A stretch of 64,000 nt of DNA from Pseudomonadota bacterium (GTDB lineage Bacteria > Desulfobacterota > Binatia > Binatales > Binataceae): the NCBI GenBank assembly GCA_021323945.1, contig JAJPKA010000020.1, positions 868,001-932,000 of the forward strand, given 5' to 3'. Every line of letters begins with the position of its first letter. The first letter of the stretch is position 1. Under the pieces are notes generated by a model, which was not told the origin of the DNA, did no database searches, and worked only from the letters and a program-made list of their open reading frames with translations. Below are positions 58,410 to 62,448 of this stretch, one piece after another. The position numbers and the translations under genes are program-made.

Positions 58410-60776
58410 ATGCGACTACTCAAAATAATAGCGGCGGTGTTGGGTGGGATACTGGTGTTCGCGGCGGCTCCCTTAACATATGAATTCATTCGCTATTATA
58501 AGTCGCTCGAACAGCAGGTCGTGACTCGCTTTTCCGGCCAGCATTGGACACTGCCTTCATTGCTTTACTCGGATTCGACAATTCTGTACCCGGGTGAGCG
58601 ACTCGATGATATCGGTTTCTTTCAGCGGCTTGCGCGTCTGAATTACCATCGAGTCGAGCCCGGCCGGGTACGTTTTCGCGGCGAATACAGCTTCGATCGA
58701 GCTCGTGGGCTGCTGGTCATTTTTCTGCACGATTTCCGGTATCCTTACCGGAACTTTGCGGGGTCGCTGGTTGCGCTCAAAATCTCGCCGTTGCAAACCA
58801 TCGAATCGATCGAAGATGTTGCCAGCCACAAACCCGAATATTCGATCGAGCTCGAGCCCGAGTTACTGGGGGCTATCTTTCAAGGGAATTGGGAGCAGCG
58901 GCGGCTGGTGCCGCTTTCGGAAATCCCGCCGGCATTTGTCGACGCCGTGCTCGCCGCTGAAGACCACCGCTTTTACTCGCACCATGGAATCGATCTCTTG
59001 CGGACGCTGCGGGCGGCTTGGATCGACCTGACCGCGCATCACGTCGTGCAAGGCGGTTCGACCCTCACGCAGCAGTTGATGAAGAATTTTTTCCTGAGCA
59101 GCAAACGCGACTGGCATCGAAAGCTCACCGAGGCCCTGATGGCCTATATCGCTGAGAAACGCTATTCGAAGGACGAAATTCTCGAGCTTTATCTCAACGA
59201 TATTTATCTTGGGCAGCGCGGCCAGGAAGGAATTTATGGCGTTTGGGAGGCATCGCAATTTTATTTCTCTCGAACTCCCCGAGACCTGACGATTGCCCAA
59301 ATGGCGACCATTGCGGGCATGATTCGCTCGCCCAATCGGTTCAACCCCTTCCGTCACCCACTGAGTGCTATCCAGCGGCGTAATGAAGTCCTGGCGGCGA
59401 TGCTTCAGGACGGCTACATCAGCAAAGCTGCTTACGATGCGGCAGTCGTCGAACCATTGCGAACGCGCGAGCCATACACCGAGACCAATGATGCGCCTTA
59501 TTTCGTTGACTATGTGAAGCATGAACTGGCGGAGCGCTATCCGCCATCGGTGCTCACCGGCGAGGGTTTGCGAATTTTTACCACCCTCGACGTACACATG
59601 GAAAAGCAAGCCGAACGCGCTATCGAGCACAATCTGCGCATGCTCGAGGAAAAACATCCCTCGCTTCGACGCAAAGAAAAAAGCCAGCAACTTGAGTCAT
59701 GCTTAGTCGCGATCGAGCCGCAGACGGGCAAGATCCGCGCAATGGATGGTGGTCGGGATTATCGCCAGAGCCAGTTCAACCGCGTCACGCAGTCTCGTCG
59801 ACAGCCTGGTTCGGCATTCAAGCCGATTACCTATCTCGCTGCGCTCGAACAGACTTTCGAGGGCGGCTCACCCAAGTTCCTGCCTAGCAGCTATATCGAT
59901 GACGAGCCCTTTACGTGGCGATTTGGCACCACTTCCTGGACGCCGAAAAACTATAAGGACAGGTATTTCGGGCGAGTAACGCTTCAGTTTGCGCTGGAAG
60001 AGTCTTTGAACGCAGCAACCTTGCGGCTCGCCAACGCGATCGGTCTGGACCGGGTGTTGGCAATGGCAGCGAAGCTCGGGTTCGATAATCTGCCGCCTTA
60101 CCCTTCGGTAGTATTGGGCGGAGTTGAGGTAGAACCGCTCAAGCTGGCGGCGATGTACGCCATCCTCGCCAACGAGGGCATGGCGGTGCCCCCTTACGCG
60201 GTCAGCAGCGTCGTCGATGCCCAGGGGCAGGTAATCGAAGGCCATGAACTGAGGGCTGACCAGGTAATTGAGCCGGAAGTCGCCTATATCATGGACTTCA
60301 TGCTGGAGCAGGTAATAGCGCACGGCACCGGCGAGGGTGTACGCAAGGCCGGTTTTCTCCGACCAGCAGCCGGCAAGACGGGCACAACGAACGATTCAGT
60401 CGATGCCTGGTTCGCAGGCTTTACGCCGAATTTGCTCGCCGTAGTTTGGACAGGGTTTGATCAGAAGGAGGCGCTGGGTTTAACTGGGGCTGAAGCCTCG
60501 CTGCCGGCCTGGACAGAGTTCATGAAAGCTGCGACCGCCTCCCGACCCGACGGTGATTTTCCGGTTCCGTCCGATGTCGTTCGGCTCCGAATCGATCCGC
60601 TGACCGGATACCTGGCAAGCGCAGATTGCCCCGTGACGATGGAGAGTGTGTTCCCCAAGGCGTTGGCGCCGACCATTGTCTGCCCGTTTCATTCAGGGCA
60701 TAAGAATGTGTCCGCACCGCCAACTCCCACCTCGGCGGACTCCTATATTGAATCAGTGGACGCGCCCAACGACTGA
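58410..60776 (+). CDS. Bifunctional penicillin-binding protein, PBP1b-like
   Basis: Class A PBP joining glycan polymerisation to crosslinking. The 788-residue protein has an N-terminal membrane helix and a UB2H-like segment (about 48-122; FFQRLARLNYHRVEPGRVRF). The GT51 transglycosylase has EDHRFYSHHG (Glu184) and GGSTLTQQL, and the transpeptidase SxxK at Ser468/Lys471 (SAFK), SLN at 532-534 and KTGT at 656. The UB2H domain is the docking site of Lpo-type activators in PBP1b. A GTG directly before the ATG is an alternative start. The stop overlaps the start of the TPR gene. Confidence 0.94.
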   Translation: MRLLKIIAAVLGGILVFAAAPLTYEFIRYYKSLEQQVVTRFSGQHWTLPSLLYSDSTILYPGERLDDIGFFQRLARLNYHRVEPGRVRFRGEYSFDRARGLLVIFLHDFRYPYRNFAGSLVALKISPLQTIESIEDVASHKPEYSIELEPELLGAIFQGNWEQRRLVPLSEIPPAFVDAVLAAEDHRFYSHHGIDLLRTLRAAWIDLTAHHVVQGGSTLTQQLMKNFFLSSKRDWHRKLTEALMAYIAEKRYSKDEILELYLNDIYLGQRGQEGIYGVWEASQFYFSRTPRDLTIAQMATIAGMIRSPNRFNPFRHPLSAIQRRNEVLAAMLQDGYISKAAYDAAVVEPLRTREPYTETNDAPYFVDYVKHELAERYPPSVLTGEGLRIFTTLDVHMEKQAERAIEHNLRMLEEKHPSLRRKEKSQQLESCLVAIEPQTGKIRAMDGGRDYRQSQFNRVTQSRRQPGSAFKPITYLAALEQTFEGGSPKFLPSSYIDDEPFTWRFGTTSWTPKNYKDRYFGRVTLQFALEESLNAATLRLANAIGLDRVLAMAAKLGFDNLPPYPSVVLGGVEVEPLKLAAMYAILANEGMAVPPYAVSSVVDAQGQVIEGHELRADQVIEPEVAYIMDFMLEQVIAHGTGEGVRKAGFLRPAAGKTGTTNDSVDAWFAGFTPNLLAVVWTGFDQKEALGLTGAEASLPAWTEFMKAATASRPDGDFPVPSDVVRLRIDPLTGYLASADCPVTMESVFPKALAPTIVCPFHSGHKNVSAPPTPTSADSYIESVDAPND

Positions 60777-61705
60777 TGCGCAGCCTCACCCTATCCAAGC
60801 TAGCTTGGTTGCCGCTGGTCGTATTGAGCGCCGGGATTTTGGCGGCGAATAGCTTTGCGCTGACCTCTCAAGATGTCCCATCGGCTGATTGGCCATCGCG
60901 CGACACCACACCGACCGCAGCGACAAGTCCTGCAAGTACGGCGTCGCCCATGCCTTTGCAGATGACTCCCCAACAGGGCGATGGTGGTGCCGCCGCGACC
61001 TCAGTAACTCCTGCGGCCGATTCCAGAGCCAGTAGCTCGGTTGAAAATGGAAGCGGCCCGGTTAACGCCGAAGCGGCGCAGGGCGAAGGTGCTTCGCTTG
61101 GACAAACTCAATCCGCCCCTGGTCAGCCACCTCCAGCTTTGGACGTTGACGCAGTGACGATAAATTCTCAAATCAGCGAGCAGTCGCTCGAGCCGGAAAT
61201 TAAAAAAGCAGTCGCCCCGGCTTTGGCCGCGTCTCTACGGTTCACGGAAGATGCGAGAGAGCGGTTGCGCGATGGCCAGATCGACGAAGCTTTGCGGGAT
61301 TTGGCCCGGGCGGTTTCGCTCGATGCTTCGAATGCTTTCGCCTACTTCTACCTCGGGCGTGCTTATCTCGCTCGGAAAAATTATCCTCAGGCGCTGACTT
61401 TCTTTCGACACGCAGTGATCGGCTTCAACGGACGACCTGACTGGGCTGCCGAGGCCTTGACTTACCAAGGCCTATGTGACGAGGAATTGGGCAAGAATCT
61501 GGACGCGGCTCAAGCGTACAAGCAAGCGCTGGCTTTGTCACCCAACAACTTCCGGGCGCGGGTGGGGTATGGGCGTTTAGCGAGCGTTGTGGCACCGGTC
61601 GGAACCATCGACGCGCCGCCGCCCACCGCGGATTTAGCACTCCCGGCGCCCAGCGGCGCTGCGGAGTTGCCGCCAGTCGAGGAACCACCTCCGCCGCCAC
61701 CCTAA
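60776..61705 (+). CDS. Exported TPR protein, candidate PBP1b activator
   Basis: The 309-residue precursor has an N-terminal signal or anchor (LAWLPLVVLSAGILAANSFA), a long Ala/Ser/Thr/Pro-rich linker (about 30-125), three TPR-like repeats (about 150-265; AEALRDLARAVSLDASNAFAYFYLGRAYL and following) and a Pro-rich tail. Its ATG overlaps the PBP1b-like TGA in TGATG, giving coupled translation. The layout recalls LpoP, the TPR lipoprotein activator of Pseudomonas PBP1b encoded beside its synthase, but there is no lipobox Cys here. Role as activator is inference. Confidence 0.75.
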   Translation: MRSLTLSKLAWLPLVVLSAGILAANSFALTSQDVPSADWPSRDTTPTAATSPASTASPMPLQMTPQQGDGGAAATSVTPAADSRASSSVENGSGPVNAEAAQGEGASLGQTQSAPGQPPPALDVDAVTINSQISEQSLEPEIKKAVAPALAASLRFTEDARERLRDGQIDEALRDLARAVSLDASNAFAYFYLGRAYLARKNYPQALTFFRHAVIGFNGRPDWAAEALTYQGLCDEELGKNLDAAQAYKQALALSPNNFRARVGYGRLASVVAPVGTIDAPPPTADLALPAPSGAAELPPVEEPPPPPP

Positions 61706-61794
61706 TTGCAGTCAGCACAAGGACCGATTGATCAACAGCCTGCCCTTAACTATTGGTCTTAGGATTTGACCGAAGCCTTGAAAGGAATGGGAAA

Positions 61795-62448
61795 ATGCGT
61801 GTGAAGAGGTTTGCGTGGGTTGTCGCCTGTATCCTGGTGCTCAGTACTACCGCTTGCGTCAAGCAACGACCGGTTTTGCACGGTGCGCGCACCGTGCTGG
61901 TGTTGCTTAACTACCAGGTGGATTACTTGAGCGCGAGCGGCAGGATGCCGGTTGCACAAGATCAGGTCGACGGCCTGATCCGCGCCACCAACAAAATGGT
62001 TCAAGCGATGCGTCAACGGTCAAACCCGGTTATCTACACCATGAATGAGTTCAGTCCCTTCCAACCAATTATCGACATATCGCAGAAGTTCTCGGCCATG
62101 CGTTTCGAACCCGGCTCCGCGCTCGACCCGCGGATCAATTACCTCGGTGGCGTCTATTTTTCCAACAATGACTGGGACGCTTTCAGCAATCCTCAGTTCG
62201 AGCGCCATCTGCAGCTAATTGGAGCCGGTCGCCTGGTGCTGGCCGGCACCTATCCGGAACGCTCGGTGCTCGATACGGCGCTTGAGGCGAAGCGACGCGG
62301 CTACAGCGTTATTGTGATTAGTGACGCCGTGGCCAGTTCGGATGCGAGCCGGCGGGACGCGGCCTTGCAATCGCTCAAGGAAGCAGGGGTCGAGGTGGAG
62401 AGCAGTGATCAGTTCATCGCAAGTCTTCGCCCGCAAATCGGCGGCTGA
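61795..62448 (+). CDS. Lipoprotein with isochorismatase fold lacking catalytic residues
   Basis: The 217-residue precursor has a lipobox TTAC (Cys21) followed by a cysteine-hydrolase fold (about 30-205): VLVLLNYQVDYL, then LVLAGTYPERSVLDTALEAKRRGYSVIVISDAVASS. By comparison with isochorismatase-like enzymes the catalytic Asp is Asn39, the Lys position is Asn124 and the Cys position is Ser157, so it should be inactive. It is 89 bp after the TPR gene in the same direction and is probably part of the envelope operon. A start 42 bp upstream is less likely. Confidence 0.75.
   Translation: MRVKRFAWVVACILVLSTTACVKQRPVLHGARTVLVLLNYQVDYLSASGRMPVAQDQVDGLIRATNKMVQAMRQRSNPVIYTMNEFSPFQPIIDISQKFSAMRFEPGSALDPRINYLGGVYFSNNDWDAFSNPQFERHLQLIGAGRLVLAGTYPERSVLDTALEAKRRGYSVIVISDAVASSDASRRDAALQSLKEAGVEVESSDQFIASLRPQIGG

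Follow-up and report, generated by a model that had tools for sequence, protein, structure and literature searches.

A TPR protein encoded beside PBP1b in Binataceae: a probable LpoP-type partner that lost its outer-membrane anchor

Near the right end of a 64,000-nucleotide stretch of a Binataceae genome (GenBank assembly GCA_021323945.1, contig JAJPKA010000020.1, positions 868,001 to 932,000; G000:C8:868001-932000 in our set), hereafter the window, a gene for a class A penicillin-binding protein (PBP) of the PBP1b type overlaps a gene for an exported tetratricopeptide repeat (TPR) protein. Judged by layout, neighborhood, and conservation, this TPR protein is most likely a partner of PBP1b in the sense in which LpoP is, and it is probably an LpoP-type partner that has lost its outer-membrane anchor; its contact with PBP1b, the activation of the synthase, and its own solubility are what we infer. 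LpoP-type pairing itself is already known; this pair stands out because its anchor has apparently been lost. It consists of the following features.

58410..60776, + strand: PBP1b-type class A penicillin-binding protein, 788 amino acids (open reading frame, domain and structure matches)
58584..58835, + strand: UB2H domain, PBP1b residues 59-142 (model matches in the window protein and orthologues)
60776..61705, + strand: exported, LpoP-like TPR protein, 309 amino acids, starting within the PBP1b stop codon (open reading frame, domain scan, conservation)
60776..60859, + strand: signal peptide of the TPR protein, residues 1-28, probably type I, without a lipobox Cys (cleavage site by eye)
60893..61174, + strand: Pro/Ala/Ser/Thr-rich low-complexity linker of the TPR protein (sequence)
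61175..61582, + strand: TPR domain (residues 134-269) made up of three TPRs and a capping helix (domain scan, conservation, AlphaFold2 model)
61316..61366, + strand: TPR1-TPR2 junction, conservation maximum of the TPR domain in the window's family (f1) and in all 97 sequences (conservation profile)

The genes of the locus all lie on the + strand, in the order M48 protease, DUF1844 protein, HtrA-like protease, PBP1b, TPR protein, and isochorismatase-fold lipoprotein. The first-pass annotation of the window, made from the letters alone, had placed the start of the TPR gene inside the PBP1b stop codon (TGATG), and the overlap is present at 60774-60778. The synthase has the domains and motifs of a class A PBP, namely UB2H, GT51, and a transpeptidase with SxxK, SxN, and KTG (EDHRFY at residue 184, SAFK at 468, SLN at 532, and KTGTT at 656; Transgly 4.1e-62, Transpeptidase 2.5e-32). 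Structures of E. coli PBP1B match it at 1e-111, with residues 29-734 aligned; it scores 588 bits on the PBP_1b equivalog model TIGR02071, under the cut-off of 718, and is over the cut-off of TIGR02074. UB2H is the docking domain of Lpo activators. A UB2H-like segment had also been annotated in this protein, and the domain models agree: the window protein gives a weak match (22.6 bits against a cut-off of 27, or 27.5 bits, over the cut-off, in a genome search with the model), and all 59 scanned PBP1b orthologues match at E 0.01 or better (best 2e-20). The window's genome also encodes a second PBP1b-like synthase (L099:3735-6338, G000:C18), whose UB2H match is stronger at 47.7 bits; within the 10 kb around it there was no TPR-profile match at E 0.01 and, by eye, no TPR-like open reading frame.

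Conservation that reaches far past the genus gives strong support to a link between PBP1b and the TPR protein. A set of 57 genomes, comprising the window's genome and relatives in families f1 to f12, was searched with PBP1b, the TPR protein, and the lipoprotein. PBP1b matched in 57/57 genomes at E 1e-60 and the TPR protein in 40/57 at E 1e-10, including 35/35 of f1; the TPR gene adjoins PBP1b on one contig in 33 of these 35, and contig ends split the pair in the other two. A sample of the class held 126 genomes of completeness 85 or more, of which 107 had a PBP1b match at E 1e-165, the 19 under that threshold being left unjudged. At least 90 of the 107 PBP1b loci have a TPR-domain profile match no more than 2.5 kb downstream on the same strand (at least 35/38 in f1 and at least 55/69 elsewhere), in at least 13 of the 15 sampled families, with none for f9 and f10 among the matches listed. 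The two genes overlap in 50 of the 94 pairs with a measurable gap (22/37 in f1, 28/57 outside it), as counted with a heuristic choice of start codons. Beyond the class the TPR subfamily is rare: 5 of 98 genomes in a phylum sample matched at 1e-25, two of them class members (the window's own genome and G041).

The TPR protein had been described at the outset as exported and LpoP-like in layout but without a lipobox, a description that held up: there is a signal sequence (its end, by eye, at ...LAANSFA-LT), a long linker, and three TPRs, with no Cys within residues 12-42. Disorder of the linker, which precedes the TPR domain start at residue 134, was judged from its P/A/S/T-rich composition alone. 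Several TPR models score over their cut-offs on the protein, and a single-sequence AlphaFold2 model of the TPR domain has a mean predicted local distance difference test score of 75.8, with block means of 87-96 over model residues 71-150 and lower values before. The 15-residue stretch of highest conservation in the domain is the TPR1-TPR2 junction, both in f1 (37 sequences) and in all 97 sequences, in a profile that includes the general TPR consensus in part. The matches listed by sequence searches were generic TPRs, and among the named-family models none of LpoP type matched, the TPR matches there being far under cut-offs; the likeness to LpoP is drawn from layout, neighborhood, and conservation.

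The best reading of the absent lipobox is that this lineage lost it and that the ancestral protein was a lipoprotein. N-termini were taken from the fetched pairs and some unpaired TPR genes (G010, G025, G079, and G080 were excluded as cut, unclear in their start, or masked), and f1 was divided into a core of 30 genomes, including the window's, and a basal set (genera g3, g4, g14, and g16). A strict lipobox pattern (in PROSITE form) matches 41/50 TPR proteins from other families, 4/7 of basal f1, 4/10 of f5, and 3/30 of the f1 core; a Cys at any position from 12 to 42 occurs in 50/50, 7/7, 6/10, and 13/30, respectively. Among the three strict matches in the core (G002, G006, and G017), the Cys of G017 sits inside the hydrophobic stretch, G002 is ambiguous, and G006 has a signal-peptidase-I-like site (AQAW) in common with its Cys-less sister G030. 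When anchor states labeled by hand, with the family known (52 lipoprotein, 28 not, 12 unlabeled), were placed on a PBP1b tree of 92, two changes were needed (shuffles: mean 23), and still two when ten ambiguous rows were set as soluble. In a mixture-model tree of 48, in which every f1-core row was set as soluble and which carried a warning of long outgroup branches, the f1 core of 30 forms one clade (support 96/93) with the lipobox genera as a grade below it, and the direction of change in the lipobox Cys within f1 is therefore loss. The basal f1 genera branch in different order in the two trees, partly with weak support. A second loss apparently took place in f5. Sister proteins there (L128 and L151 versus L098 and L147) vary at the would-be lipobox Cys (LVLAC, LVLAG, or LVLAS) before the same AGYAQEG-like site, which suggests that the f5 TPR proteins are probably soluble as a whole.

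Several points weigh against reading the TPR protein as an LpoP-type partner without its anchor. The strict lipobox pattern catches just 41/50 proteins of other families and 4/7 of basal f1, yet matches three of the 30 in the core, and the remaining assignments are visual judgments made with knowledge of the family. Setting the ten ambiguous rows as lipoproteins raises the changes on the tree of 92 to 10, not 2, and weakness in the deep branches of that tree makes the f5 loss less certain. PBP1b occurs without an adjacent TPR gene in some genomes of the class. Among the 17 PBP1b loci outside the 90, contig ends by position split the pair in G010, G025, G075, and G114, and PBP1b is partial in G128; in G043, G096, G056, and G091 the open reading frame immediately after PBP1b matches the TPR profile more weakly; the TPR match lies elsewhere in the genome in G067, G095, and G103 and on another contig in G084 and G111; and G113 has a TPR fragment at a contig end, 5.6 kb from PBP1b. 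No TPR match adjoins PBP1b in G051 and G083, nor in G036, a genome outside the class sample. Outside f1 (60 sequences), conservation peaks in the first helix (2.58), with the TPR1-TPR2 junction nearly tied (2.56). Structure searches with the TPR domain gave generic TPRs, and the absence of LpoP from the 50 best rows is uninformative either way. Finally, mirror-tree analysis gave a weak signal that does not single out UB2H: partial correlations of the TPR domain with the UB2H, glycosyltransferase (GT), and transpeptidase (TP) domains were 0.31, 0.18, and 0.18 in all 90, 0.40, 0.21, and 0.37 within f1, and 0.27, 0.23, and 0.27 outside f1, where UB2H equals TP. For the full 90 and for f1 the top value is that of UB2H, with TP significant as well; co-divergence of the sequences lends the partnership weak support.

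This unspecific signal and the generic TPR fold would also suit a general periplasmic scaffold that is co-transcribed with PBP1b without touching it. We consider such a scaffold unlikely, however, because the pair is kept across families, its genes overlap, UB2H is found in every scanned orthologue, and the conservation peak falls at the zone where LpoP contacts UB2H.

E. coli CpoB is a soluble periplasmic protein. That the TPR protein is a modulator of this kind, restraining or timing PBP1b instead of activating it, is improbable, although it too is periplasmic and probably soluble, having no lipobox in the clade of the window; in a Foldseek list of generic TPRs the CpoB/YbgF TPR domain 2xev takes ranks 16, 20, and 25, and LpoP and CpoB are described in the cited sections of PMC7267771 as having a common TPR fold. 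In families other than f1 and f5, however, the related TPR proteins have a lipobox-like Cys and adjoin PBP1b as LpoP does, and a separate YbgF/CpoB-like gene lies beside pal in the window's genome (L192:1809-2693, G000:C15), its product scoring 77 bits on TIGR02795 (cut-off 90). This gene lies after pal and encodes a lipobox, LGLLGC; the genome also encodes a lipoprotein signal peptidase, and its Pal has a lipobox.

The YbgF/CpoB-like protein, which matched in 44/57 genomes and is located after pal, served as a control for the lipobox calls. A lipobox was found at 28/30 inspected loci and at 25/27 in the f1 core, the two failures being matches that start inside the protein; the lipobox pattern of this control, applied to residues 9-45 of the f1-core TPR proteins, matched 7/30. 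The idea that lipidation of the CpoB-like protein compensates for anchor loss in the TPR protein finds no support in a simple form, because f1 genera with the TPR anchor intact (G003, G014, and G016) have the CpoB-like lipobox too.

Two further segments of the TPR protein are distinctive.

60860..60892, + strand: degenerate copy of the linker motif, LTSQDVPSADW, where many relatives have xEE[NS][LI]P (alignment of linkers)
61583..61702, + strand: proline-rich C-terminal tail of the TPR protein, ending in PPPPPP, an f1 feature (sequence comparison)

The linkers are poorly conserved except for E[EQ][NSDTRE][LIVM], typically two residues after a hydrophobic residue. This motif occurs in 27/30 linkers of the f1 core (0.9 on average and 6 at most after shuffling), 7/7 of basal f1, 4/10 of f5 (shuffles up to 4), and 15/50 of other families (shuffles up to 5); 14 of these last 15 are from f2, in which all 14 genomes that could be read, out of 18 in the sample, are positive. 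As the acidic linear motif E[EQ]x[LIV], it is conserved in the otherwise variable TPR linkers of f1, f2, and part of f5. It is degenerate in the window (LTSQDVP) and in G001 (LTSRDVP), and G007 likewise fails the pattern. The proline-rich tail is an f1 trait, with a median of 47 residues in the core and only 7 in G014; tails outside f1 are short, with medians of 6 and 9 residues.

The gene downstream of the pair is a neighbor that lies outside the conserved unit.

61795..62448, + strand: lipoprotein with an isochorismatase fold and replaced catalytic residues, a neighbor outside the conserved pair (domain scan, alignment, neighborhood)

The first-pass annotation had joined all three genes into one envelope module, with the TPR protein and the lipoprotein as a two-part activator of PBP1b. 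The PBP1b-TPR part stands on the class-wide conservation described above, whereas the lipoprotein belongs to the arrangement only in the window's genus among the 57 genomes searched. Its gene does start 89 bp downstream, as annotated (ATG at 61795, preceding gene end at 61705), and the description of a lipoprotein with a dead isochorismatase fold agrees with our scans: the protein matches PF00857 at 2.3e-25, is a predicted lipoprotein (lipobox LSTTAC, Cys21), and has N, N or S, and S at the positions of Asp, Lys, and Cys, which we take to be the catalytic triad of the isochorismatase superfamily. In an alignment of 15 proteins, seven have a lipobox by eye; the catalytic Cys is gone in all seven, Asp is kept in one (G005) and Lys in five, and all three residues are lost in the window and G001. 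Three close relatives without a lipobox (G009, G013, and G020b) retain Asp, Lys, and Cys, and the remaining five of the 15 belong to other subfamilies. The f1 lipoproteins seem to lose their catalytic residues stepwise, a pattern that we read as stepwise decay, Cys first, before the gene came to stand beside PBP1b.

The lipoprotein search covered the 57-genome set, not the larger class sample, and matched in 19 genomes at E 0.001, with a match better than 1e-25 in eight besides the window's (G001, G005, G006, G009, G013, G020, G030, and G033). The lipoprotein gene adjoins the PBP1b-TPR pair only in the window's genome and G001, the two genomes of the window's genus; in G033 and G020 it shares a contig with the TPR gene at a distance of 17-19 kb, and in the other five it lies on a different contig. 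Other f1 genomes with the pair had no lipoprotein relative better than E 1e-8. The surroundings of the relatives in G006, G013, G020, G030, and G033 have gene content in common; five neighbors scanned in G033 are an aminotransferase, a coaD-type CTP-transferase-like protein, an rsmD-type methyltransferase, a nuoH-type NADH dehydrogenase, and a chaperonin, and the aminotransferase was confirmed in G006. Since the lipoprotein elsewhere lies away from the pair and in another common neighborhood, the gene for this decayed enzyme looks like a recent neighbor of the pair, placed there in one genus.

A two-part activator would be in keeping with the order PBP1b-TPR-lipoprotein in both genomes of the genus and with the lack of a terminator-like site in the gap between the last two genes. 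It is nonetheless very unlikely: the lipoprotein relative stands away from the pair in seven other f1 genomes, most f1 genomes have the pair but no such relative, the common neighbors elsewhere are not cell-wall genes where scanned, and the catalytic Cys is already lost in genomes in which the gene does not stand beside PBP1b. We therefore rejected the three-gene module, whose order is confined to the window's genus among the 57 genomes, an outcome that the first-pass annotation had itself named as refuting its proposal.

As an LpoP-type partner, the TPR protein would use its TPR domain to dock on PBP1b, at the surface of UB2H and possibly the neighboring GT domain, and stimulate polymerization, as LpoP does in Pseudomonas and Acinetobacter. 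Its ancestor would have been a lipoprotein that reached the synthase from the outer membrane via a disordered linker; loss of the lipid anchor in the clade of the window, apparently repeated in f5, would have left a soluble periplasmic partner, which the overlap of the genes may allow to be made in step with PBP1b. Any targeting of the unanchored partner would have to rely on the linker motif, the proline-rich tail, or PBP1b. It has been proposed that Lpo activators sense the condition of the wall, since they are tied to the outer membrane and reach the synthase through the sacculus. A bolder and doubtful possibility is that an LpoP-type activator was freed from the outer membrane on two occasions, with the CpoB-like protein of the same cells lipid-anchored instead (the reverse of E. 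coli), that control of the synthase does not need reach through wall pores, and that the acidic linker motif lets the linker dock on a new partner or in the groove of the TPR domain, as EEVD peptides do in other TPR proteins.

Loss of the anchor should alter the place and timing of activation. It need not abolish activation, since a soluble construct of A. baumannii LpoP (GT activity up about 3.3-fold, as given in the cited part of PMC7943195) and LpoB mislocalized by tethering to the cytoplasmic membrane (cited part of PMC9593243) still activate PBP1B. A lineage with an activator-like gene beside the synthase but no tether is a natural experiment on the need for anchoring, for which the sister genera that retain the lipobox are matched controls. 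A literature search found no LpoP without a lipobox in titles and abstract openings.

Among known systems, the proposed role as a PBP1b partner at UB2H is like that of E. coli LpoB, which differs in being a lipoprotein and in the fold of its globular domain (cited sections of PMC7267771). Like CpoB (YbgF), the periplasmic TPR regulator of E. coli PBP1B, the TPR protein is periplasmic and, in the window's clade, without a lipobox; unlike CpoB, it is encoded outside the tol-pal locus (after M48 protease, DUF1844, HtrA, and PBP1b), and the genome has its own YbgF/CpoB-like gene with a lipobox after pal. The third gene product has the fold of isochorismatase-like cysteine hydrolases (PF00857) and differs from these enzymes in the replacement of all three catalytic residues and in being a predicted lipoprotein.

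The closest counterpart is LpoP. In P. aeruginosa it is anchored at Cys19, with residues 20-146 disordered and a TPR domain at 154-258 that binds UB2H near helix 2-3, also the most conserved region of LpoP, and it raises the GT rate 4.5-fold and TP products 2-fold; the same sections describe such a pairing as not widely conserved (PMC7267771). In A. baumannii, lpoP adjoins the PBP1B gene and its product activates PBP1B, according to the cited part of PMC7943195. The TPR protein of the window differs in lacking a lipobox in its clade and in its f1 proline-rich tail, and the linker motif is a conserved feature of the TPR proteins here that stands beside the comparison by layout. Like LpoP of both species, it is an exported protein whose long linker precedes a TPR domain at the C-terminal side, here of three repeats; its gene adjoins a UB2H-bearing PBP1b, as in A. 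baumannii (PMC7943195, same part); and its conservation peak at the TPR1-TPR2 junction corresponds to the UB2H-contact zone of LpoP, in a pairing that our data extend to most sampled families of the window's class.

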